Source: Thalassomonas haliotis (GTDB lineage: Bacteria; Pseudomonadota; Gammaproteobacteria; Enterobacterales; Alteromonadaceae). From it: a stretch of DNA of 64,000 nt. The stretch lies in NCBI RefSeq assembly GCF_028657945.1, contig NZ_CP059693.1, positions 4,960,001 to 5,024,000 on the forward strand, given 5' to 3'. Both the position numbers and the translations under genes were made by a program. Of the stretch, positions 29,058 through 43,923 are shown in pieces. The first letter of the stretch is position 1, and each line of letters begins with the position of its first letter. Below the pieces are notes generated by a model. That model made no database searches, was not told the origin of the DNA, and saw only the letters and a program-made list of their open reading frames with translations.

Positions 29058-29600
29058 ATGCAATTAGACGATTTAGTAGAAGCCATCATGTCTTCTGTGG
29101 CTTCGGCGCAGGATGAAATAGAAAAACAAAACATTCAGAACCTCAGCCGCTATTTTAATAAAGACGGCGAGCCGGAAGTGGTCACGGTACGCCTGCCCTC
29201 GGCATCCGCCCATTTACAGGCGGTGGGCGGCAATACCAGCCAACCGCCCCAGGGCAGCGACGGCTACCAGGAAATCGATATTCCCCTGCTGACCCTGCTC
29301 CAGGTAAAACCGATAAAAATCAAAAGTATGAGTGTTAATTTTAATATCTCCCTCACCGCCGTAGAGTCCATCGAACAGGCGGCAGAAAACGAGGATAAAG
29401 CCGACAACCTGCTACACACCTCCACAAGTACAATAATGAAAAAAGCGCGCAAGAAGAAGTATATGTCGACGGATTTATTCGGCGGCAGCTTATTCGGTCG
29501 GGGTAAAAACCGAAACGCGGAAGTGAAAATCACTTTCGAAAGTGGAGAGCCGCCAGAGGGATATTTGAAGTTGAATAGCCACCTGCTCAAGCTCTTCTAA
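29058..29600 (+). CDS. Diverged DUF2589-like protein
   Basis: It starts 11 bases after the previous gene with an AGGTG site. Although overall different, it keeps the same layout as its neighbours: an N-terminal helix (LDDLVEAIMSSVASAQDEI), strands IDIPLLTLLQVKPIKIKSM and VNFNISLTAVES matching the VPFISIVSVPTLQVDS and FTMEV strands of the others, and a final PPEGYLKLNSHLL matching TPEGLSRLMDIL. I read it as a third member of the family, perhaps a hetero-oligomer partner. Confidence 0.7.
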   Translation: MQLDDLVEAIMSSVASAQDEIEKQNIQNLSRYFNKDGEPEVVTVRLPSASAHLQAVGGNTSQPPQGSDGYQEIDIPLLTLLQVKPIKIKSMSVNFNISLTAVESIEQAAENEDKADNLLHTSTSTIMKKARKKKYMSTDLFGGSLFGRGKNRNAEVKITFESGEPPEGYLKLNSHLLKLF

Positions 29601-29624: not shown

Positions 29625-30230
29625 ATGGCTGGAGAACTCGTAAAAATGTCCGATCAGTTCCAGGGACTACCCATGGATTCATTGATTGGCGGGCCGTTAA
29701 CGGCAGCTTGCGACGCTCAGGTGATGTTGGCCAAAGCTACCTCAGATTTTATTACCGATGTGGGTTTTGATGAGCAGAAAAAAGTCCGTATGGTAGACTT
29801 TTCCTTCTCAAAACCCGAACAAATTGAAAGAGACGACGGCACGGTAGACATAGTTAAAACCGACTATGAAGTGAGCGTGCCTTTTATTTCCATCGTCTCT
29901 GTGCCTACCCTACAGGTAGACAATGTCGATGTGTCGTTTAATATGGAAGTGAAATCGTCTTTTTCCGAGTCCAAGAAATCGGACCGTCAGGCGGCTTTTT
30001 CTGCTGAAGGCAGCGGCGGTATCGGGCCTTTCAGGGTTAAGGTAAAAGTCAGCGGCTCTATTTCATCGTCAACGGCTTCAGAGCGTAAAAGCGATAACTC
30101 GGCAAAATATGCGGTACAGGTAGTCGCCAAACAAACCGGCACCCCGGAAGGGCTTTCCCGGGTACTGGATATTTTGCAGCAGTCGATAGCGCCGGTACCT
30201 AAAGATCCGGCACCGGCCACCGGTAGCTAG
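29625..30230 (+). CDS. DUF2589 domain protein, second paralogue
   Basis: This 201-residue protein is closely similar to the first gene of the cluster: QGLPMDSLIGGPLTAACDAQV, VRMVDFSFSKPEQIERDDG, VSVPFISIVSVPTLQVDN and GTPEGLSRVLDILQQSI. The central linker differs. A good AAGGAGAT site precedes the ATG. The protein appears cytoplasmic. Retaining two similar copies plus a diverged one suggests a mixed assembly; function is unknown. Confidence 0.8.
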   Translation: MAGELVKMSDQFQGLPMDSLIGGPLTAACDAQVMLAKATSDFITDVGFDEQKKVRMVDFSFSKPEQIERDDGTVDIVKTDYEVSVPFISIVSVPTLQVDNVDVSFNMEVKSSFSESKKSDRQAAFSAEGSGGIGPFRVKVKVSGSISSSTASERKSDNSAKYAVQVVAKQTGTPEGLSRVLDILQQSIAPVPKDPAPATGS

Positions 30231-31320: not shown

Positions 31321-31797
31321 TTACTTCCTTGGTTTGTAATTCAAAAACTCAAAAAATACCGGATCACCAATTCTTTCCCGGCCCGCTAATTTCTTTCTAA
31401 TTGTCCTGACGGATACCCACCTGGAAGACCACACATTTTCCCTTTCGCCGCCTATCTCAAGTTCCCGGCATACATATTTAAGTTCATGCAATATTGCCTC
31501 TATGGCCAGTTCCGGGTCGCTGCAGCCATATCGAAGTTCTGACCAGCAAAATACAGGGTTTGCAGCTATGAAATAAATTATTGCTTCCCGCAGCTCTGCA
31601 CCATATCGGTCAATACCAAGCGCATATAACACCAGTGCCCGAACTTCCACCATGTCATAAATGGTGATCACTGGCGGTCTGGTGACACCTGCCTCGTTGA
31701 GGATCTGCTCTATCGGCATTCCTCCGCCTTTCCTGTTGTTCACTATCCTAAGCAGCGCATCGGTTAATTGCTTTTCCTTGAATCCGTCCGGGTGCAT
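31321..31797 (-). CDS. Hypothetical protein, leftward member of a divergent paralogue pair
   Basis: This 158-residue protein is a diverged paralogue of the rightward gene at 31943. Shared features include an N-terminal helical part with a conserved Gln-Ile-hydrophobic-Asn-Glu (EQILNEAGV against EQIINESGV), a middle with SELRYG/SELRFF and DPELAIEAI/DPEAEIFSN, and a C-terminal basic block (RTIRKKLAGRERIGDPVFFE against ATVARKLASRKRIGSPEYLA) followed by NYKP/SYKP. No named domain is recognised. The basic helix could bind nucleic acid, which is inference. Confidence 0.6.
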   Translation of the reverse strand: MHPDGFKEKQLTDALLRIVNNRKGGGMPIEQILNEAGVTRPPVITIYDMVEVRALVLYALGIDRYGAELREAIIYFIAANPVFCWSELRYGCSDPELAIEAILHELKYVCRELEIGGERENVWSSRWVSVRTIRKKLAGRERIGDPVFFEFLNYKPRK

Positions 31798-31942: not shown

Positions 31943-32467
31943 ATGAACCACCAGGGAAGATACAGAAAATTGAATGATTATTTGATTCAAAGAGTACTCG
32001 CCATAGTTCGCCAGACTCTAAAGCAACAGGAGCACTTACCAGAAGATAAACAAAAATCTGTTGAACAGATTATCAATGAATCTGGTGTTAGCGGGATTGG
32101 CCCTCAAGGGATGGCAGAATTCAGGGCCGGGATATATGCCGGGTTAGGGATTGGAGTATGTCAGCCCGGTACGCTCAGGCAAAACTTGCAAGGGCTACTC
32201 TTCGACCATGATGTATTTCGCGTAAGTGAACTAAGATTTTTCTTCCCGGGAGACCCGGAAGCGGAGATATTCAGCAACCTGACAGAACTGGGCTACACCC
32301 TCAAAACCTTGGTAGGAGAACCGGAGCCAGTCTGGCGACCTAAGTTCATGCAGCGCGCAACAGTGGCAAGAAAGCTTGCATCACGCAAGCGTATTGGTAG
32401 CCCAGAATACTTAGCCTACTTATCGTATAAGCCCCCGCAACGCAACGATACGATAACACGGCATTAA
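31943..32467 (+). CDS. Hypothetical protein, rightward member of a divergent paralogue pair
   Basis: The 174-residue product is related to the leftward gene at 31321-31797 along its length. It begins NHQGRYRKLNDYLIQRVLAI and shares EQIINESGV, SELRFF, a DPEAE block and the basic ARKLASRKRIGSPEYL segment near the end. No signal peptide, membrane helix or known domain is seen. The start is an ATG about 25 bases downstream of the inverted repeat. Unknown function. Confidence 0.65.
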   Translation: MNHQGRYRKLNDYLIQRVLAIVRQTLKQQEHLPEDKQKSVEQIINESGVSGIGPQGMAEFRAGIYAGLGIGVCQPGTLRQNLQGLLFDHDVFRVSELRFFFPGDPEAEIFSNLTELGYTLKTLVGEPEPVWRPKFMQRATVARKLASRKRIGSPEYLAYLSYKPPQRNDTITRH

Positions 32468-33328: not shown

Positions 33329-33550
33329 CTAGGGTGTTGTGCCTTCTTCTTTCTCTACAGGGAAAAAACTATCTGCCATAGGAGTTATAGGAGCTGCGCT
33401 TGCAGGATTAACCCCTTTTCCGCCACCAGAACCCCCTGTGATATTTTTTAGGTCATCAAGAGTCAGTGCTGTTGGGTAAACACCTTTACCGCCATTGCTG
33501 CCGCCAGTGATATTTTTTAGTTCATCAGTTGTTAACTTCTGCATGGTCAT
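33329..33550 (-). CDS. Double-glycine leader peptide with duplicated leader-like module
   Basis: I start at the ATG at 33550, which has AAGGAA at good distance, giving 73 residues; a longer frame from 33628 is possible. The N-terminus MTMQKLTTDELKNITGG is a textbook bacteriocin/RiPP leader. The module repeats at once: LTTDELKNITGGSNGGKGVY, then LTLDDLKNITGGSGGGKGVN, each with GG followed by a GGKGV stretch. The C-terminus is Pro/Ala-rich and acidic and has no Cys. No modification enzyme or peptidase-ABC exporter lies nearby. It overlaps the upstream regulator gene by 26 bases. Confidence 0.65.
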   Translation of the reverse strand: MTMQKLTTDELKNITGGSNGGKGVYPTALTLDDLKNITGGSGGGKGVNPASAAPITPMADSFFPVEKEEGTTP

Positions 33551-33875
33551 CGGTTCCTTGTAGATTGATTGGCTGTTTGAGGTGGTCTGTTTTTGGTGCT
33601 GCCCGGCAGGCGTTAGGTTTTGTTTCATCTCCTAGATCCTTATATTGAGAAAATTGTTGCTCAAGTGCTTTGAATTGCTTTGCAAACCCCGAAAGGTCAA
33701 ATCCGCAATGAATGCAGATAAGAAAGGCTTTATCATATTTGGGCTTACTCTTGCCGTTCTCCCATTTCTCCACAGTTACCCGGCTGACCCCGACTTTTTT
33801 CGCCAGCGCTTCGGTGGTCAGGTTGACAGAGAGTCTGGCGCGCTTTAAGTCATCTTTGCTTGGTATGAAGGGCAT
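33525..33875 (-). CDS. XRE-type helix-turn-helix regulator
   Basis: The 116-residue protein has a Cro/cI-type domain near the N-terminus (LKRARLSVNLTTEALAKKVGVSRVTVEKWENGKSKP). The C-terminal half is a polar tail with FLICIHCGFDLSGF. Its 3' end overlaps the start of the double-glycine peptide gene, so the two are translationally linked. It likely controls the cassette; a TTCCTTTAT/ATAAAGGAA inverted repeat lies just upstream of its start. Confidence 0.75.
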   Translation of the reverse strand: MPFIPSKDDLKRARLSVNLTTEALAKKVGVSRVTVEKWENGKSKPKYDKAFLICIHCGFDLSGFAKQFKALEQQFSQYKDLGDETKPNACRAAPKTDHLKQPINLQGTDDHAEVNN

Positions 33876-33935: not shown

Positions 33936-34263
33936 ACTAGAAATAAAAGGAAGGAAATACAACAAAAACGATGATGCACATCATACTAGTACCTTCCTAT
34001 GCTAGGGGAGCTTAATTTTGACTGACACAGTAAGTTTTAATGTGAGGCCTTCAGTCATACTTATGAAAACGTCGAGGTGATACTCCAGAGATACGGCCAC
34101 ATTTAAACGCTTTGCCATGAATTAAGCCCATTTGAGTCCAATCAAAGACTGCATAAAAGGGAAGCTAAAACAGGCTGCGTAGCCTGATGATGCCAGGGAA
34201 AAGCTCATACTTGCATAAAAAATAACAAGCATGATTTTTCCCTGATATGAGGGCTACTCGCGA

Positions 34264-35295
34264 TTAGCGAGACCTGCCATATAATTTGAGACGTCTTTCT
34301 ACGCAGGCAGAGCGCTTAATATTAGGCCCGGTGTCTGCATTTAAAGACTGCAAGTTATCCAACTTTTTACCGTGTTCCTCATAAAGTATGCCTAAGCTTG
34401 TTTGGAAGTCATGCGCTGCTATTTTAGGGATATCTATCTCGTCGATGGGCACTAAATTATATCGCTCCCGCCGTTTATCCAACATCTGAGAAAATACTTT
34501 TACCTCATGTTTAATATCGTCAAAATCTTGGGGAGAGAGCACATTATCGGGGTTTAATGTGCTGTTAAATGGCTCATCGCGATCAAGAGTCATAAGGTAA
34601 TCAGCTAATAGTGAAGTATCATAGCGGCTCACACCATAAAACACATACATTAAAGCCTCTTTTATATGCCATTTTACCTTAGCCGTCACCCTTTGTTTTT
34701 TACGGTATTCAGAGCTTGCCGCAGACAGCTCAAGAGAGTAAAGCGATAATAGCCCAAGGGAGGTATCACCAAATATCACCAGTTTACGTGCTATGTCGAC
34801 TCTCACATCTAAACTTAAGTCAAACCTTTGCAGCGCGGCAATCATTGCATAGCGATCATTATTGTCAACTTGCGCCAGTAAATTTTCTTTGCTCATTTCG
34901 CGATAAGGCTCTATTAAATCAGCGCTTGGTCGGTCGCTATAATTACCATCAGGGTCTTGTGTATTAAAATAAATCCGGCCTCTTGCTCTCTCCCAGTCCG
35001 CTGATTCTTGGTTGGCAAATTGCAAGTCGGCTTCCGTTAAATCTATACTCCTGAAGCACCAGTCACCTTCATAGGGGATTTTTTTAGGGCTTAAATCGGG
35101 ACTTGTATTATTTATCTGGGTTGCTTTTGCCTGACTATTCGTTTGAGGCGGTGGCTCAAGGGGAGACATATCACTTTGTTGATGACGCTTTTCAACGACA
35201 GAAGACTCTGCTATTACTGAATTGCTCTCAGTACCAAGCTGAGCCAGATAAAAAACACTCCCGAAAGCAAAAACAGCAATCGTTTTTTTTCTCAT
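34264..35295 (-). CDS. Membrane-anchored helical-repeat protein, orphan copy
   Basis: The 343-residue protein has an N-terminal anchor (KKTIAVFAFGSVFYLAQL), a Ser/Gln-rich linker and a helical periplasmic domain beginning at DWCFRSIDLTEADL. The region NNDRYAMIAALQRFDLSLDVR and GDTSLGLLSLYSLELSAA looks like an alpha-solenoid. Two conserved Cys (WCF and SACVERR near the end) could form a disulfide. It is nearly identical to its neighbour at 35626-36666 but has no secreted six-Cys gene directly upstream. Function unknown; it may be a spare partner or immunity-like protein. Confidence 0.7.
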   Translation of the reverse strand: MRKKTIAVFAFGSVFYLAQLGTESNSVIAESSVVEKRHQQSDMSPLEPPPQTNSQAKATQINNTSPDLSPKKIPYEGDWCFRSIDLTEADLQFANQESADWERARGRIYFNTQDPDGNYSDRPSADLIEPYREMSKENLLAQVDNNDRYAMIAALQRFDLSLDVRVDIARKLVIFGDTSLGLLSLYSLELSAASSEYRKKQRVTAKVKWHIKEALMYVFYGVSRYDTSLLADYLMTLDRDEPFNSTLNPDNVLSPQDFDDIKHEVKVFSQMLDKRRERYNLVPIDEIDIPKIAAHDFQTSLGILYEEHGKKLDNLQSLNADTGPNIKRSACVERRLKLYGRSR

Positions 35296-35320
35296 TGATT
35301 TACCTTAATATTATGACTTA

Positions 35321-35355
35321 AAGGTATATGCTAAGGCATTCTTGGCATATACCTT
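35321..35355. promoter_or_regulatory. Inverted repeat upstream of the orphan partner gene
   Basis: AAGGTATATGC and GCATATACCTT form a perfect 11-bp inverted repeat with a 13-base spacer, 25 bases before the start codon. A similar one (AAGGTATATG/CATATACCTT, 36692-36726) precedes the second copy. It is either a regulator site or a transcript hairpin separating the genes. Confidence 0.45.
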
Positions 35356-35625
35356 CCGATGTTAGGGGAGCTTGATTTTTAGCCTACACAGTGGGTTTTA
35401 ATGTGAAGCCTTCAGTCATACTTATGAATACGTCGAGATCATGCTCCTTAGAATATGACCACATTTAAACGCATTGCGATGAACTTAGCCCATTTGAGTC
35501 CAATCAAAGACTGCATAAAAGGGAAGCTAAAACAGGCTGCGTAGCCTGATGATGCCAGGGAAAAGCTCATACTTGCCTAAAAAACAACAAGTATGATTTT
35601 ACCCTGGCATAAGGGCTACTCGCGA

Positions 35626-36666
35626 TTAGCGAGACCTGCCATATTCTTTAAGACGTCTTTCTACGCAGGCAGAGCGCTTAATATTAGGCCCGCTATCTGC
35701 ATTTAAAGACTGCAAGTTATCCAACTTTTTACCGTGTTCCTCATAAAGTATGCCTAAGCTTGTTTGGAAGTCATGCGCTGCTATTTTAGGGATATCTATC
35801 GCGTCGATGGGCACTAAATTATATTGCTCCCGCCGTTGATCCAACATCTGAGAAAATACTTTTACCTCATGTTTAATATCGTCAAAATCTTGGGGAGAGA
35901 GCACATTATCGGGGTTTAATGTGCTGTTAAATGGCTCATCGCGATCAAGCTTACTAAGATAACTACGTAGTAGTGTAATATCATACCGGCTCACACCATA
36001 AAACACATACATTAAAGCCTCTTTTATATGCCATTTTACCTTAGCCGTCACCCTTTGTTTTTTACGGTATTCAGCTCTTGCCGCAGACAACTCAAGAGAG
36101 TAAAGCGATAATAACCCAAGGGAGGTATCACCAAATATCACCAGTTTACGTGCTATGTCGACTCTCACATCTAAACTTAAGTCATACCTTTGCAGCGCGG
36201 CAATCATTGCATAACGATCATTATTGTCAACCTGCGCCAGTAAATTTTCTTTGCTCATTTCGCGATAAGGCTCTATTAAATCAGCGCCTGGCCGGTCGCT
36301 ATAGTTACCATCAGGATCTTGTGTATTAAAAAAAATCCGGCCTCTTGTCCTCTCCCAATCATCTGATTCTTGGTTGGCAAATAGCAAGTCGGCTTCCGTT
36401 AAATCTACAGTCCTGAAGCACCAGTCACCTTCATAGGGAATTTTTTTAGGGCTTAACTCGGAACTGGTATTGTTTATCTGGGTTTGTTTTGCCTGACTAT
36501 TCGTTTGAGGCTGCTGTTCAAAGAGAGACTTATTACTTTGTTGATGACGCTTTTCAACAACAGAAGACTCGGCTATTAAAGGATTACTCTCGTTATCAAA
36601 CATAGCCAGATAAAAAACACTCCCGAAAGCGAGTACAACAAGCACAACAATCGCTTTTTTTCTCAT
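35626..36666 (-). CDS. Membrane-anchored helical-repeat partner of six-Cys protein A
   Basis: This 346-residue paralogue of the 34264-35295 product has the same anchor, linker and helical periplasmic domain. Differences cluster in the linker and in one helix (YDITLLRSYLSKLD against YDTSLLADYLMTLD). It lies 84 bases downstream of the six-Cys secreted gene A on the same strand. The pairing resembles effector and immunity genes, but no toxin or immunity family is recognised. Both should be periplasmic. Confidence 0.7.
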   Translation of the reverse strand: MRKKAIVVLVVLAFGSVFYLAMFDNESNPLIAESSVVEKRHQQSNKSLFEQQPQTNSQAKQTQINNTSSELSPKKIPYEGDWCFRTVDLTEADLLFANQESDDWERTRGRIFFNTQDPDGNYSDRPGADLIEPYREMSKENLLAQVDNNDRYAMIAALQRYDLSLDVRVDIARKLVIFGDTSLGLLSLYSLELSAARAEYRKKQRVTAKVKWHIKEALMYVFYGVSRYDITLLRSYLSKLDRDEPFNSTLNPDNVLSPQDFDDIKHEVKVFSQMLDQRREQYNLVPIDAIDIPKIAAHDFQTSLGILYEEHGKKLDNLQSLNADSGPNIKRSACVERRLKEYGRSR

Positions 36667-36750
36667 AGATTTACCTTAATATGATGATTTTAAGGTATAT
36701 GCTAAGGCATTCCTGACATATACCTTTCTATAATTAGGTCTGCTTGATTA

Positions 36751-37350
36751 TTAACCAGGACAGTGGGTGGCAATATGCAGTGCTCTATTTATCTTACACT
36801 GTCCAAAAAGCCGGTCACGTGTAGCCGCCGCTGAATTTACACACTTATCATAATCGGGCGATGTTACCGAGGCGCTTACAATAGCACCACTACCGCCAAC
36901 TTGCACTGTCCCTTTTGAATTACATACCTTGTCGAGCGTTGCTTCATATTTACTTAAAGGCCCCTCAAGACAAATTTCATAATTTAGCTCGGCCTTATCT
37001 ATACATTTTGCCCTTGTATCTTCTTTCTCTTTCTCTTTCTCTTCCTCTTCTTCTTCTTTTTTCGGGTCAGGTTTAGGGGTTAATGGCGTACTACCACTTG
37101 TCGCCCCGGAAACTCCACCATCGCCACCACCAGCATTACCTGTGCCACCAGAGCCACCGAGTACAGCCCCGCCTCCTGTACCTCCCCACCGCTCTAAAGC
37201 ATCATTACCGGGTTCACTTGAGACGCAACCTTCTGTGGTATCCCCACAACCAGCAAACACTGTAGATAAGGCAAAGTGAAATTCATTATTATCGAAGGAA
37301 AAGTTAACTTGCATTAAAGCAAGGATTAAAAGTAATTTTACGGTTTTCAT
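36751..37350 (-). CDS. Secreted Gly-rich protein A with six-cysteine C-terminal domain
   Basis: The 199-residue protein begins with a hydrophobic signal (MKTVKLLLILALMQVNFSF); FAGC at residues 32-35 could be a lipobox but is far from the start. A Gly-rich segment (GGTGGGAVLGGSGGTGNAGG) and an acidic Glu/Lys linker follow. The C-terminal domain has six Cys spaced 10-15-26-14-11 and ends HCPG. The first ~105 residues and upstream DNA are nearly identical to gene B at 39689-40285, while linker and C-terminus differ. Function unknown; the layout suggests a polymorphic secreted protein. Confidence 0.72.
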   Translation of the reverse strand: MKTVKLLLILALMQVNFSFDNNEFHFALSTVFAGCGDTTEGCVSSEPGNDALERWGGTGGGAVLGGSGGTGNAGGGDGGVSGATSGSTPLTPKPDPKKEEEEEEKEKEKEDTRAKCIDKAELNYEICLEGPLSKYEATLDKVCNSKGTVQVGGSGAIVSASVTSPDYDKCVNSAAATRDRLFGQCKINRALHIATHCPG

Positions 37351-37656
37351 TAATAAATTAAATCCATTATTTTTTATTGGAGAGAATGCCGAAGGCCTTA
37401 GCTCTTTATGAAAAGAAGGGGAGTCAGTACAACATTCCGTGTAGAACCTGATAATTCTGGGCGGCGGGTATAGACAAATTAAAAATTAGAGTAAACACAC
37501 CAAAACAAAAAAGTATAAAAAAGGTTAACTTTTTGTTTTTATCATCAAAAAATAAGTGAACCCCCAATAAAAAAGACCTTATGGTAAATGCTGCTCTCTG
37601 TAGAAATTGGCGAAATGAAAGATGCCGTCACTAACCGCGACTAAGCGTTAAAAATA
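37072..37656 (-). repeat. ~585-bp near-identical repeat, copy 1
   Basis: It covers the 5' coding part of six-Cys gene A and about 300 bases upstream of it. The other copy is at 40007-40591, offset 2935 bases, with only scattered differences. The upstream part contains no gene and presumably carries the promoter. Confidence 0.9.
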
Positions 37657-37676
37657 AAATAGTGTGATCTTATTGC

Positions 37677-37704
37677 AAAAAACGGGGAACAACTTGGTTC
37701 CCCG
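37677..37704 (-). terminator. Rho-independent terminator of the ankyrin-like gene
   Basis: CGGGGAAC/GTTCCCCG (37683-37704) has a six-base loop, and six As at 37677-37682 give a T-run on the minus strand, directly after the stop of the 641-residue gene. Confidence 0.8.
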
Positions 37705-37710
37705 GGAAGA

Positions 37711-39636
37711 TTAAATTTTCAACTGCGGATATAAAGTCACTAATTTTGTATATAACTCTTTCTTCTTTTTAGCAAAAGAAGCTACATATTGCTTATGAAA
37801 ATCAGTAATAGTTGCTCCGCCGTTAACTAAAGCATCAACATAGCGAATATCTTCAGGATAAAAATATAACTCACTGATAGCCTTGCTGAGCGGAGCATTT
37901 AAACCTTTGGCTGGATCAGGGCTAACCCCAATATTGATAAGAAAGTTAAGACTATTTAACTTTTTCCCTCCAACCGCAGCTGTAATAGCATTGTTGCCCA
38001 TAGAATCAACAAAGTGAAAATTATAACCATGTCGATAAAGGGATTGCAGTACATCTACATTACATTTATTAATTATTGTCGCGAATATATTAGGGTCTAT
38101 TTCTGCCCCTTGTTCTATTAACTTTATTAGCTGCTGAGAATCAGCATTTGCTAATAGTGCAAATAAAAAACTAACATTAAGTTGCTCTTGTTCGCTCAGT
38201 TCAACATATTCTAATCGCTCTGCCAAAGCCGTTTGCCACTCACCTTGCTTGAGTAGTTGAGCAATCCGCTTGGTAATCTCCCGCTGCTTAGGCTCAGCTA
38301 TTAGTTCATTGCTCTTTTCACTATTTTTATCAACTTCATATTTTTCTAACTCCTTTTGACGTAAAAGTTGCAATTGTTGCTCAAACTTAGATGAATCAAA
38401 ATTAGCAACTAAAAGCTCTTGCTCACTTTTTTCTTTATCTGCCACTGAGAAAATACTACTAACTAACTTTTTCTTCAGTTTCAATGAGGTTAAACAAACT
38501 CCATCATCATTTAAATCGGCCATAGCCTTAGTAAAAATGTTACTAACAGCTTCATCTCTGATATTTTTTTCGTGTTTTGACAAGCTTTGATAATCAAACT
38601 TTACAATCACTTGTGGGTGAGATTGCAAATACGAGTCAGATAATTGCAGCTTTAATAGCAGTGAAGTATCTTTCTTGTTGGGAATAATGCCGTATTCGAG
38701 TAATAAAGTAATAAATTGCTCTAATAAATGAACATCTTTGATTTCAGCAGCATAATCCAAAGCATTCTCTCGGTATTTTAAAGGTGAGGGGCTTACTCCC
38801 TCAGCAAGCCAATAACTGGCACTATCAAGCATTTCACTTTGAACAGCTAAGGTCGCTAATGTATGAATATTTTCTTGAGAATAAAAAACTTGATTAACAT
38901 CCCCAACGAAGTGTTCATTCAGCAATTGTAATATTACGATTGAAAACCCTTCAGTAGTAGACTCCACCAAATCGGAAAAATAAACAGGCACTTCAACCGC
39001 CATTAATTCATTAATGACTGTTATAGCTTTAGCTTCTGTATCCTCAATTTTCTGGCTTTTTAATGCGGTTAAAAAGAGCTGTACCGGGGAGTATAACTTT
39101 TGATCCAGTAAAATCATCTTATCCAGAGGGATATGCCCATTTCTATACAAAGATAATAACTTTTCTACATCGGCATCCTGTAATAACTGAGCGATTAATT
39201 TTCTCTGTTCAAAATTAATAAAGTTGCTATTGAGTCCAACAAGAGAAGTTACATTTTTCCGGTCATCTCCCCTTAAAAATCTATGCCCTCTGGATGTACC
39301 AACCCCAGTTTCAATTAACACTTGATCAATAACTTTACGACTGGCATTACTTTCATTCAGTTGCACCAATAAATCTTGTATCAGTTGCTTTTTTTCATAC
39401 CAATTCACTTGAGGCTTTTGTAATTTAAACAAATCCTTACACTGAGAAGCTATAACTTGAGTTTGCTCACCAACCACACCTTGCTTAATTAAAGACGGCG
39501 TATCACTAGCCTCAAGTTCTTGAATAACTTGCTGTCTATCTTCATTAGATATCAGTTCTTGCTGAACATCATAACTAAAAAAATAAACAACAACCAAGAG
39601 GAGTAAAGTGGTAATAAAGTAAAACTTAACCTTCAT
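37711..39636 (-). CDS. Membrane-anchored ankyrin-like repeat protein, partner of six-Cys protein B
   Basis: The 641-residue protein starts with one membrane helix (FYFITTLLLLVVVYFFSY). The rest is helical and should be periplasmic. The C-terminal third has ankyrin-like repeats: QLIKLIEQGAEIDPNIF, VLQSLYRHGYNFHFVDSMGN with NAITAAVGG, LNFLINIGVSPDPAKG and VDALVNGGATITDF; weaker ones occur in the middle (SYWLAEGVSPSPLKYRENALD). A Glu/Lys-rich coiled region lies near residue 410-450. It follows six-Cys gene B by 52 bases. Ankyrin-repeat partners often bind a cognate protein; an immunity role is inference. Confidence 0.72.
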   Translation of the reverse strand: MKVKFYFITTLLLLVVVYFFSYDVQQELISNEDRQQVIQELEASDTPSLIKQGVVGEQTQVIASQCKDLFKLQKPQVNWYEKKQLIQDLLVQLNESNASRKVIDQVLIETGVGTSRGHRFLRGDDRKNVTSLVGLNSNFINFEQRKLIAQLLQDADVEKLLSLYRNGHIPLDKMILLDQKLYSPVQLFLTALKSQKIEDTEAKAITVINELMAVEVPVYFSDLVESTTEGFSIVILQLLNEHFVGDVNQVFYSQENIHTLATLAVQSEMLDSASYWLAEGVSPSPLKYRENALDYAAEIKDVHLLEQFITLLLEYGIIPNKKDTSLLLKLQLSDSYLQSHPQVIVKFDYQSLSKHEKNIRDEAVSNIFTKAMADLNDDGVCLTSLKLKKKLVSSIFSVADKEKSEQELLVANFDSSKFEQQLQLLRQKELEKYEVDKNSEKSNELIAEPKQREITKRIAQLLKQGEWQTALAERLEYVELSEQEQLNVSFLFALLANADSQQLIKLIEQGAEIDPNIFATIINKCNVDVLQSLYRHGYNFHFVDSMGNNAITAAVGGKKLNSLNFLINIGVSPDPAKGLNAPLSKAISELYFYPEDIRYVDALVNGGATITDFHKQYVASFAKKKKELYTKLVTLYPQLKI

Positions 39637-39688
39637 ATTTTCCCTGCCCTAAAGTAATTCACAATAAAAATTAGATTACAATTTGTGA

Positions 39689-40285
39689 CTAAACACAATC
39701 TTTCAAATCATTCGTTCTAGTCTCAATACAAAGAGCATTTAATGTAAAATATCTATCATCATGTTTCTGAGTACAACTATAAATTGCGTCGGTAACGTCT
39801 CCAGCTCCAACAACACTTGATGCTACATTCGTTGGAGCAGCACTCTGTTTACACTCATTATATGTGGTCTTCGCTTTATAGGTTGCCGTATTCTGACACT
39901 GCGCAAACTCCCCGTTCGCTTCAATTATACATACCTCTTTTTTATCCGCTTCATTTTTCTCCGTTTCCTCTACTTCCTCTTCTTCCTCTTCTTCTTTCTC
40001 TTCTTCTTTAGGGGTTGATGGCGTACTACCACTTGTCGCCCCGGAAACTCCACCATCGCCACCACCAGCATTACCTGTGCCACCAGAGCCACCAAGTACA
40101 GCCCCGCCTCCTGTACCTCCCCACCGCTCTAAAGCATCATTACCTGGTTCACTTGAGACGCAACCTTCTGTGGTATCCCCACAACCAGCAAACACTGTAG
40201 ATAAGGCAAAGTGAAATTCATTATTATCGAAGGAAAAGTTAACTTGCATTAAAGCAACGATTAAAAGTAATTTTACGGTTTTCAT
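39689..40285 (-). CDS. Secreted Gly-rich protein B with six-cysteine C-terminal domain
   Basis: The 198-residue protein has the same signal, Gly-rich region and start of linker as gene A. After a very acidic linker the C-terminal domain differs in sequence but keeps six Cys spaced 10-14-25-14-10, within one residue of protein A at every gap. It ends DCV. Like A it is followed by a membrane-anchored helical-repeat gene, here ankyrin-like. The common N-terminus with a diverged C-terminus fits module exchange by recombination in the shared 585-bp repeat. Confidence 0.72.
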   Translation of the reverse strand: MKTVKLLLIVALMQVNFSFDNNEFHFALSTVFAGCGDTTEGCVSSEPGNDALERWGGTGGGAVLGGSGGTGNAGGGDGGVSGATSGSTPSTPKEEEKEEEEEEEVEETEKNEADKKEVCIIEANGEFAQCQNTATYKAKTTYNECKQSAAPTNVASSVVGAGDVTDAIYSCTQKHDDRYFTLNALCIETRTNDLKDCV

Positions 40286-40591
40286 TAATAAATTAAATCC
40301 ATTATTTTTTATTGGAGAGAATGCCGAAGGCCTTAGCTCTTTATGAAAAGAAGGGGAGTCAGTACAACATTCCGTGTAGAACCTGATAATTCTGGGCGGC
40401 GAGTATAGACAAATTAAAAATTAGAGTAAACACACCAAAACAAAAAAGTATAAAAAAGGTTAACTTTTTGTTTTTATCATCAAAAAATAAGTGAACCCCC
40501 CAATAAAAAAGACCTTATGGTAAATGCTGCTCTCTGTAGAAATTGACGAAATGAAACATACCGTCACTAATGCGACCAAGCGTTAAAAATA
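40007..40591 (-). repeat. ~585-bp near-identical repeat, copy 2
   Basis: Second copy of the repeat at 37072-37656, covering the 5' coding part of gene B and its upstream region. Similarity stops abruptly after GCGTTAAAAATA. From 40592 to 40761 no gene is seen. Confidence 0.9.
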
Positions 40592-40935: not shown

Positions 40936-41049
40936 TTAAACAGTTGGTCAAATGCGGATAAGATAAAAACCCGCCAAGTTTACAAGAAAACCGTGTAAAC
41001 CAAAAGCCGGTTGCTAAAATGCAATTTTCTAATAAATGGAAGTATTACA

Positions 41050-42114
41050 ATGAAAATGATTTCACTCTTCATAATCACAGCGGCAATCAACCTTTTAGCC
41101 ATTAGCCCAGCTGAGGCACAAGAACACAATCTGCCAGTATACTCCTGCGATACTTGTAGCGCAGCTAAAGCGATTACTGTTGCAAAACAACATTCAAACC
41201 CGCTTGAATGCCATTGGAACAATCCCCCTGGCACTACACCACAACCGGGAGATCAATATTGTGAAACAACATACAAATTATTAGCTGTCGCAAATCCATT
41301 AACACGCGAATCGTGGAAATTCAAAGTAACCACAAGTTCAAACAATATTTACGAAAAACTTATAACGGTAGAGCAAATAAACTTTCTAGAACAAGAGTCT
41401 GAACTTATTAGTTCTTTCTTTAATATTGACCATGAATTCCGCGAGGCTGTAACTGATGCTGCTACGACCATAATGAGCAACAAAAAAAATAACATACTGA
41501 GTTCTAGTGAAGATTGCTCCAGTCACCCGGCAAGTTATTTCACATCGCAAGGTAAGCAAAAAATAGAAGATCAGATGACGGCACAAATTACCCGAGAATT
41601 AAATGGTAATAGTTGGTTTGATCATATAACCGAGAAAACATGGACAGGTGGCTCATTTAGCTTAGGTAAAGATAACGTTAGTATAGGAGTACAATTCGAT
41701 AAAGATGAACGCCCTGTATTCACTCACGCTATTTTTGGCGACCCGTTAGATAATATACTTGCTTTCAAAGTAGGGTACAGCGGCGAATATTTATATTCAA
41801 GCCACAAAAGATTGGCACTCTCTTACGAATTACAAAAAGGTGCCAGTCGCATCGAAGGTTTTATTTTAAGTCAGTTGGATAACAGCCATGTCGATATGCG
41901 TGGTATGGAATTTAGCCAGTGTTTTATAGCGTTTTTTGAAGACCTTTTAGCAAGTGATGTAGAAGAAATGATTTCAAGAAGTGCAGGAGGATTTCCCGTA
42001 TCTCCAACCATTGGTTGGGGTGGTATGGGTGGTGGCGGTGGTTTATGCACTACCACAGTTCATACCAGAGCAGGAAACCGCCAGCAAACATTTATTTTCC
42101 CGGTATCTTGCTAG
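41050..42114 (+). CDS. Exported Cys-containing protein with Gly-rich C-terminal tail
   Basis: I start at the ATG at 41050, which gives a clean signal peptide (MKMISLFIITAAINLLAISPAEA, cleavage before QEHN) and has a GGAAG site. The mature part has a Cys pair (YSCDTCSAAK) and further Cys at ECHW and YCET, a helical middle, then a beta-rich region and a tail GWGGMGGGGGLCTTTVHT ending in PVSC. It is unrecognised. The GGGGGLCT tail recalls the Gly/Cys-rich frame after the S41 gene and the Gly-rich six-Cys proteins of this island. Confidence 0.68.
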   Translation: MKMISLFIITAAINLLAISPAEAQEHNLPVYSCDTCSAAKAITVAKQHSNPLECHWNNPPGTTPQPGDQYCETTYKLLAVANPLTRESWKFKVTTSSNNIYEKLITVEQINFLEQESELISSFFNIDHEFREAVTDAATTIMSNKKNNILSSSEDCSSHPASYFTSQGKQKIEDQMTAQITRELNGNSWFDHITEKTWTGGSFSLGKDNVSIGVQFDKDERPVFTHAIFGDPLDNILAFKVGYSGEYLYSSHKRLALSYELQKGASRIEGFILSQLDNSHVDMRGMEFSQCFIAFFEDLLASDVEEMISRSAGGFPVSPTIGWGGMGGGGGLCTTTVHTRAGNRQQTFIFPVSC

Positions 42115-42725: not shown

Positions 42726-42829
42726 GCCTAACGCCCATTTAAGGGGCTAATAATAGTTTGCTAAAATGTGCAGCGAAGCGGAACCGAGCCAACTGTTACG
42801 AATCCGACTTTAAGGCTTTGTTATATGCC
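42726..42829 (-). repeat. attC-like integron recombination site 2
   Basis: On the minus strand it opens GGCATATAACAAAGCC, overlapping the last codons of the serine hydrolase gene, and ends AAATGGGCGTTAGGC, with GTTAGGC matching the core GTTRRRY. Inner parts contain inverted repeats around CGGTTCCGCTTCGCTGC. Confidence 0.68.
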
Positions 42830-43923
42830 ATTAAGTAGTCAATAATCTTATCTGTAATGGCTTCTAACTTTTGGTGAGTATTTCCACCTGCGACGTTTGT
42901 TACGATGAAAATACCTATATTTTTCTTCGGATAAATGGCAAGCCAACTAGACGTGCCCATTGTGCCGCCGCTTTGGTATAGCATTTGTTCATTTGAATCA
43001 TATTTATATGTGTTCCAAGAGAATGCTGTACCATGACCAGTCCAACTCTCATCCAGAAGTTGATGAGAAATAGCCACCTCAGGTTCTGAGGATAGTTGAT
43101 GTTGAATATAATGCGTGACAGACTCAACGTTTGAAGTTAACCCTCCATCAGCAAACCAATATGCACTGGCCAAAGGCATTTGATTACCATTTCCATCTGT
43201 CCCTACCGTAATTTCACCTGGCTCAAAGTTAGTACCTCTGAATTTCGTGTGCTTCTCTCCTGACTTGGTTGTAATGATTTCAGAAACTAGTAATTCAAAA
43301 GGCTTTTGGTAAACAGACTCTAGAATATATCCAGCTAAATTAGTACCTACGGGTGAATATTGATAGTCCTCGCCAGGTTTAGAGTTAAGTTTCACTTTTT
43401 TAAGATCATCAAAGTAATTATCTCTGGAATATTTTGACATTTTTTCAAAAGCAATGCCTTTTGCTCTATCTTCGCTGCTATAAGCAAAATTTTGCGGGAG
43501 CCCACTGGTATGAGCCATAAGATGTCGTAAAGTTATATATTGATTGGACAGCTCTAAATTTTTGTATTCGTTATTTTTGAGGTAATGACGAATATCTTTA
43601 TCAAGCTCAACTTTCCCGTCTAGAATGGCTTTAGCAACAACTAACCCAGTATAAGTTTTGGTTATAGAGCCAATTTCGTATATTGTTTGGTTATTAGGAG
43701 TATCTCCATTACTTAACGTCCCTAAATGATATTGGTAAGTATTTTCTGAATCTACCACAGAAATTGAGACCACCTGCCCGACATTTCCATCAATAAATTC
43801 AATGATTTCAGCTTTCGTATTTGACTCAAAATTAATTGCATCATGATTTTTACAAGAAGCCAAAACTGTCATTAATGAAATAACAAATATCAATGATATG
43901 GGTTGGGTTATTAATCGATTCAC
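42796..43923 (-). CDS. Serine hydrolase lipoprotein of the beta-lactamase/AmpC-like family
   Basis: The 375-residue product has a lipoprotein signal ending VLASC. GSITKTYTG carries the catalytic SxxK pair near residue 88-91; YQYSPVGTNLAGYIL holds the YxN-like Tyr and HGTAFSWN the third box. The fold is that of class C beta-lactamases, esterases and D-aminopeptidases; activity on beta-lactams cannot be assumed. The gene lies between two attC-like sites, and its last codons overlap one of them, as usual for integron cassettes. Confidence 0.82.
   Translation of the reverse strand: MNRLITQPISLIFVISLMTVLASCKNHDAINFESNTKAEIIEFIDGNVGQVVSISVVDSENTYQYHLGTLSNGDTPNNQTIYEIGSITKTYTGLVVAKAILDGKVELDKDIRHYLKNNEYKNLELSNQYITLRHLMAHTSGLPQNFAYSSEDRAKGIAFEKMSKYSRDNYFDDLKKVKLNSKPGEDYQYSPVGTNLAGYILESVYQKPFELLVSEIITTKSGEKHTKFRGTNFEPGEITVGTDGNGNQMPLASAYWFADGGLTSNVESVTHYIQHQLSSEPEVAISHQLLDESWTGHGTAFSWNTYKYDSNEQMLYQSGGTMGTSSWLAIYPKKNIGIFIVTNVAGGNTHQKLEAITDKIIDYLMAYNKALKSDS

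Follow-up and report, generated by a model that had tools for sequence, protein, structure and literature searches.

A candidate family of Sec-exported polymorphic toxins with paired partner proteins in Thalassomonas haliotis

What is encoded by two neighbouring genes that begin almost identically, end differently and are each followed by a different partner gene? We addressed this question for a locus of Thalassomonas haliotis within the window, i.e., the whole stretch of 64,000 nucleotides analysed here, which belongs to a genome of 6.45 Mb in a single contig; the genus sample comprised 4 genomes. The components of the two cassettes are collected in Table 1, in which CTD stands for C-terminal domain and pA for the partner family of CTD-A. 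We consider it probable that the two cassettes encode toxin/immunity pairs belonging to a family of Sec-exported polymorphic toxins. Since similarly built proteins of related bacteria carry known toxin domains, the cassettes of the window are most likely weapons and their antidotes.

Table 1. Components of the two cassettes, in positions of the window
Feature	Position	Strand	Description
Module B	39689-40285	-	ORF, 198 aa
Partner of B (candidate immunity protein)	37711-39636	-	ORF, 641 aa
Module A	36751-37350	-	ORF, 199 aa
pA1, partner of A (candidate immunity protein)	35626-36666	-	ORF, 346 aa
pA2, further partner copy without own module (orphan immunity candidate)	34264-35295	-	ORF, 343 aa
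Upstream region of B, common to A	40286-40591	-	Within 620-base repeat
Upstream region of A, copy of that of B	37351-37656	-	Within 620-base repeat
N-module of B	39973-40285	-	Signal-peptide-like start, AxA-like site, Gly-rich stretch; signal and cleavage site by eye
N-module of A, copy of that of B	37041-37350	-	Repeat comparison
CTD-B, candidate toxin domain	39692-39949	-	86 aa as trimmed, six Cys
CTD-A, candidate toxin domain	36754-37014	-	87 aa, six Cys, predicted two-helix hairpin
Terminator-like hairpin between cassettes, 3' of the 641-aa gene	37683-37704	-	Terminator-like site scan

When aligned over 620 bases, the segments 39973-40591 and 37041-37656 show 96.45% identity, and such a shared stretch cannot be explained by chance. 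This repeat spans about 306 bp of upstream sequence and about 104 codons of modules B and A, and beyond it the CTDs and the following genes of the two cassettes differ. It thus bears out the sequence-only reading of this DNA, which had described two genes with near-identical starts and upstream regions and different C-termini, and whose outer limit (40591) corresponds to the end of the repeat to the base. A second duplication (33990-35396 and 35350-36768, 90.9% identical) corresponds to pA1 and pA2 with their flanks, the two proteins being 89% identical. Together with the ORF map, it confirmed the earlier view that the extra partner copy, pA2, is an orphan. Between 34000 and 41000, promoter-like matches were not in excess (16 for a shuffle mean of 17.8) and terminator-like sites not in clear excess (7 for a mean of 5.5), so that the cassettes are graded only as likely to be separate transcription units.

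On comparison with the congener G001, dN/dS was lowest in module B (0.11 in CTD-B and 0.14 in the N-part) and in its 641-aa partner (0.17), and reached 0.32 in pA2 and 0.34 in pA1, values as for real genes in all five comparisons; these cover module B, its partner, pA1 and pA2 because module A has no counterpart in G001. The first 100 codons of modules A and B, which show few changes, gave a dN/dS of 0.77 when compared with each other. CTD-B is under purifying, not diversifying, selection relative to G001, which counts against the toxin reading. G001 harbours module B, its partner and one pA gene, without CTD-A; the A cassette thus varies between sister species and the pA of G001 is an orphan.

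Other features were observed around the cassettes. Just outside them lies a gene for a secreted-looking protein without Pfam or NCBIfam match at E<=1 (41011-42114, plus strand), followed by a beta-lactamase-fold protein on the minus strand (42796-43923, PF00144 1.4e-40) whose best NCBIfam match, AmpH, is below the cut-off. On the other side, a 99-aa ORF (33329-33628, minus strand) that overlaps an HTH gene (33525-33875) contains two DxLKNITGG stretches resembling double-glycine bacteriocin leaders (TIGR01847 1e-5, ComC 3e-4). Two divergent ORFs, 31321-31797 (minus) and 31943-32467 (plus), have C-termini that look alike by eye and no Pfam match at E<=0.001, and two tandem DUF2589 genes are located on the plus strand (29058-29600 and 29625-30230).

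Modules A and B had no family match under E=0.05 in Pfam or NCBIfam, in agreement with the earlier statement that no known toxin domain is recognised. A T6SS- or CDI-type N-terminal delivery domain was not found in either module with Pfam and NCBIfam at E<=1, nor was a receptor-binding domain recognised there by Pfam, and PADLOC only retrieved a weak PDC-S15 match for module A (E=0.019). CTD-A had no PDB sequence match under E=0.15, and neither CTD-A nor the pA family matched Pfam, NCBIfam or, by sequence, PDB. The two CTDs of the window exhibited no similarity on direct comparison. The spacing of the six Cys in each is similar by eye, and the CTD-A and CTD-B groups are joined under single linkage by one link only (L072-L194), so that the two domains may be very remotely related. 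Five Cys columns were invariant in the alignment of nine CTD-A sequences. The predicted fold of CTD-A is a two-helix hairpin (H2-29 and H53-84, mean pLDDT 83.5, with positions 40-48 uncertain) in which the six Cys could form three rungs between the helices; conserved Cys in such a predicted hairpin would fit an oxidising compartment. A possible lipobox, identified by eye, reads VFAGC in the window but VYADC in G001.

On the partner side, the 641-aa protein has an N-terminal hydrophobic segment (by eye) and an ankyrin-like stretch at 525-589. The ankyrin-like nature that the sequence-only reading attributed to this protein is marginal in the window, where the Ank_2 match (E=1.6e-5, 25.8 bits) stays below the curated cut-off of 27.3, and holds for the relative L117, where an Ank match exceeds the cut-off (29.5 bits). 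The predicted structure of pA1 consists of an N-terminal helix, a low-confidence segment (24-70) and an all-helical body (85-343), with a mean pLDDT of 83.7; as modelled, this combination of helix and helical body fits a tethered binder. A profile scan built from four pA proteins retrieved matches in Alkalimonas amylolytica, an Alkalimonas MAG, a gammaproteobacterial MAG and Rheinheimera sp. YQF-1, with CTD-A directly upstream of pA in A. amylolytica and in Rheinheimera. Matches to pA were present in 20 of 196 family genomes and in 9 of 295 genomes of the order sample (four already known and five new, two of the latter weak and partial), and pA1 had no match among 72,556 plasmid records.

The association of CTD-A with pA was assessed by running a CTD-A profile (9 sequences) against 80 selected genomes (20 in which pA had been matched, 53 in which it had not and 7 outside the pA family search); this unbiased genome scan for pairing covers CTD-A only. 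Matches were obtained in 9/20 pA-positive genomes, 0/53 pA-negative genomes and 1/7 of the others. CTDs without a partner gene, which the sequence-only reading had set against the idea of a paired system, were not encountered for CTD-A: pA came directly next in all ten cases, including that of G261, where the match is a fragment close to the end of its contig. Conversely, only 10 of the 28 distinct pA genes had CTD-A upstream, one of them (L070) a mere 54-aa remnant. The other 18 are orphan partners, including L064, which is situated at the edge of a contig, and L062, which is preceded by only some 700 bp. They also include all five new pA genes of the order sample (L221-L225, of which two are weak or partial matches), none of which had CTD-A upstream; this counts against the toxin/immunity reading. 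Partners without toxins and never toxins without partners is the pattern expected of immunity genes.

We also compared CTD and partner types over 28 hand-picked module loci, using trimmed CTDs and thresholds of E<=0.01 for CTD and E<=1e-4 for partner similarity, and excluding leader genes that head Rhs, RTX or 616-731 aa proteins or that lack a CTD. Among the 42 pairs of loci with similar CTDs, 38 also had similar partners and four disagreed; none of 10,000 shuffles, which ignore common descent, reached 38 (maximum 33). When two near-duplicates were removed, 35 of 37 such pairs were concordant. The co-variation of partner with CTD type that had been anticipated from the sequence was thus found over these loci. 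Because most of them were located via their partners, this test supports co-variation and not pairing itself. Another 102 pairs had similar partners without detectable CTD similarity, a pattern that would arise if CTDs evolved faster than partners. An initial run on untrimmed CTDs without filters (64 concordant pairs, 28 similar in CTD only) had placed nearly all CTDs in one cluster; this was attributed to low-complexity linkers, and the trimmed CTDs were used instead. At 9 of the 28 loci (L088, L089, L095, L098, L117, L123, L129, L191, and L192) a membrane ORF of 63-149 aa, possibly a second immunity protein, lies between module and partner. A link of this ORF with hydrophobic CTDs (5/9 versus 4/19 at the other loci) was not significant (Fisher p=0.097) and was kept as a hint only.

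Relatives connect this architecture with known toxin domains. In the congener G003, a 116-aa N-module occurs at four loci, three copies being 93-99% identical to the one used as query. It precedes a CTD-B-type CTD with a 645-aa ankyrin-like partner at L080, CTDs of another cluster with partners of 304 and 308 aa at L089 and L117, and a phospholipase A2 (PLA2)-like CTD at L116. The latter matches PF06951 (8.7e-6) and PF09056 (4.2e-5), both under the curated cut-offs, and contains a CxxHDxCY motif (by eye); the gene that follows it encodes a different protein of 507 aa. In G049, the PLA2 CTD of L126 is above the Pfam cut-off (1.1e-9) and its partner clusters with that of L116. The CTD and partner of L060 and L080 are of the same kind as those of cassette B, the L080 partner being 39% identical to the 641-aa partner over about 628 residues. 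Module B itself matched in 4/196 family genomes, and a search of genome contigs with module B retrieved no relative.

Related leaders (the leader profile has 58 positions) were found on the Rhs proteins L122 (RHS_repeat 8e-51), L195 and L196 and on the RTX proteins L193 and L200, the match being strong for L122 (1.6e-21) and weak for the four others (1.9e-4 to 8.6e-8). At E<=0.01, leader matches occurred in 32/395 family genomes, at least one of them (L202) looking like a stomatin-type protein and those in G027, G070 and G129, of similar length and score, probably likewise; in the class sample only the own genome was matched (1/229). Recognised toxin domains are absent from the window modules and present, as PLA2-type, Rhs and RTX, in relatives bearing another leader. 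The leader profile did not match the window N-modules (hhalign probability under 4%), so that the bridge to the Rhs and PLA2 relatives consists of CTD-B, its partner family and the layout. The own genome contains a further module/ankyrin-partner locus (L095 5823-7727, at about 5.806 Mb of G000:C1); its leader is of the G003 type, it shows a TonB-box-like motif, and a 69-aa ORF separates module and partner. In four genus genomes (L118-L121), a leader ORF without recognised toxin part adjoins a 398-aa ORF that is the same in all four, and a Fic gene lies no more than about 5 kb away.

In the own genome the plug domain of transporters was matched 52 times, and a loose [IV]x[VI]x[GA] pattern precedes the plug in 26 of the 30 transporters read, often as E-x-I-x-V-x-G-x-R and in some cases within the signal peptide. 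We built a TonB-box matrix from 29 segments selected by this pattern in 30 of the 52 transporter matches (six in signal peptides by eye), and scored the 60 residues after the leader in 33 representatives, with 1,000 shuffles each; these were self-chosen and partly non-independent, with leader ends set by hand. A TonB-box-like motif was detected (p<0.05) in 21/33 representatives, three of which (L193, L197, and L200) look unconvincing, and in 2/28 controls, residues 26-85 of partner proteins treated by the same procedure; scores above 8 were reached by 17/33 and 0/28, respectively. The window module showed no such motif (p=0.27). According to the part of PMC11658791 used here, TonB boxes are required by TonB-dependent colicins and lie in colicin M within a disordered N-terminus. 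As judged from sequence, the motif suggests a colicin-like uptake via the TonB system for the relatives, not for the window pair. TonB is also needed to export a protease (PMC11658791, same part), so that an export role of the motif is possible too.

Fic-family genes adjoin many leader genes (PF02661 5.1e-16 in L126). Among Fic matches of at least 120 bits, 20/24 lay within 6 kb of a leader match, or 11/15 after removing by hand nine that had built the model, compared to 1/25 of the weaker ones; conversely, 23 of 39 leader matches had a Fic match within 6 kb. There is no Fic gene in the window. A wider scenario, which we find rather doubtful, is that of a new class of colicin-like weapons in Alteromonas-type bacteria. 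The mature N-terminus would mimic the TonB box of outer-membrane transporters, of which these genomes encode dozens and through which rivals would import or the producer export the toxin; CTDs ranging from six-Cys hairpins to PLA2, RTX and Rhs types would be swapped on one leader, tethered solenoids would confer immunity and Fic would tune or license the system. The window cassettes would then be a divergent branch in which leader, motif and Fic were lost or replaced.

At the sequence level, the window pair combines three features of polymorphic toxin systems: a shared N-module with swapped CTDs, a co-varying downstream partner and orphan partners. The N-module would export the protein from the cytoplasm and provide a flexible Gly-rich arm, and the exchanged CTD, presumably disulfide-bonded, would be the toxic part, attacking rival bacteria in their periplasm or at their membranes. 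The gene behind it would encode a membrane-tethered helical repeat protein facing the periplasm, which would bind the cognate CTD and shield the producer and its kin, and the extra pA copy would be a spare or orphan immunity gene. The signal-like start and the predicted structures suggest that the toxin would act, and the partner protect, at the membrane or within the periplasm.

The toxin/immunity interpretation offered by the sequence-only reading has gained support from the 10/10 association of CTD-A with pA, the co-variation and the toxin domains of relatives. These relatives weaken the two alternatives that it mentioned, adhesins and receptor/ligand pairs, although the CTDs of the window pair have no match among known toxins and its leader cannot be recognised as the one on the Rhs and PLA2 relatives. 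If the modules were surface adhesins or matrix proteins, the CTDs would be binding domains and the partners periplasmic assembly chaperones, which would suit secreted proteins with a signal and a Gly-rich stretch and CTDs devoid of a toxin domain. We regard this as unlikely, since PLA2, Rhs and RTX domains are found on relatives of similar build and the partners vary with CTD type and survive as orphans, both of which chaperones would not need. Pairing, co-variation and orphan partners would suit equally well the receptor of a signalling pair, in which a secreted six-Cys ligand and a membrane-tethered receptor would serve kin recognition. However, Pfam recognised no signalling domain in either window partner, and the PLA2-type CTDs of relatives favour enzymatic harm, making such a pair very unlikely. 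Finally, PLA2, Rhs and RTX domains also occur in anti-eukaryote toxins, and those of the relatives would be compatible with a weapon against eukaryotic hosts or grazers whose partner is a self-protection factor. Cognate and orphan partner genes, both present here, are more typical of antibacterial systems, and we give this last possibility hardly any credit.

The antibacterial toxin/immunity reading points to a secreted family whose CTD-A type and pA family lie outside Pfam, NCBIfam and PDB matches. It links small hypothetical proteins, PLA2-, RTX- and Rhs-type proteins and a Fic subfamily in one modular picture, and the TonB-box-like motif of the relatives makes outer-membrane crossing directly testable. 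In the portion of the open-access full-text literature covered (which excludes subscription papers and preprints), we found no description of the leader, the six-Cys CTDs or the pA family, of a TonB box on Sec-exported toxins or of a link to Fic.

Several known systems resemble the cassettes, as far as described in the parts of the sources cited here. TonB-dependent colicins such as colicin M require a TonB box (PMC11658791), and the relatives have a TonB-box-like motif in a low-complexity N-terminus. The colicin M immunity protein is membrane-anchored and periplasmic (PMC5821083), as the window partners may be, and some ColM-type bacteriocins carry Sec signals (PMC11658791, PMC5821083), as the window modules probably do. 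In contrast to these colicins, the window modules lack the motif and a recognised receptor-binding domain and have small CTDs. The SitA toxins of myxobacteria are likewise modular exported toxins with swapped C-termini and operon-linked immunity; they differ in being lipoproteins and in having escort domains some 375 aa long (PMC8546572), whereas the possible lipobox of the window is not conserved between species. In the Tle6/Tli system of T6SS, an ankyrin-repeat immunity protein neutralises a lipase from the periplasm (PMC11470151), a periplasmic ankyrin-repeat defence against a membrane-attacking toxin similar to the one proposed here. Tli is lipidated (PMC11470151), whereas the window partner would be tethered by its N-terminal segment, and the modules have no T6SS signature. 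Polymorphic toxins that depend on Sec and contain PLA2 and Rhs parts are already known (Zhang et al. 2012, PMC3482391). That work names the N-modules MafB-N, MicroscillaN, APD1 and APD2, whereas modules A and B contain none that Pfam recognises. The word "TonB" is absent from the first 300,000 of its 357,715 characters, and CTD-A and pA are without any family match here. The Sec/T2SS polymorphic toxins that it describes share with the proposed organisation of the cassettes a signal peptide, a variable C-terminal toxin and an adjacent immunity gene, and include Tox-PLA2 and Rhs repeats as in the relatives identified here.
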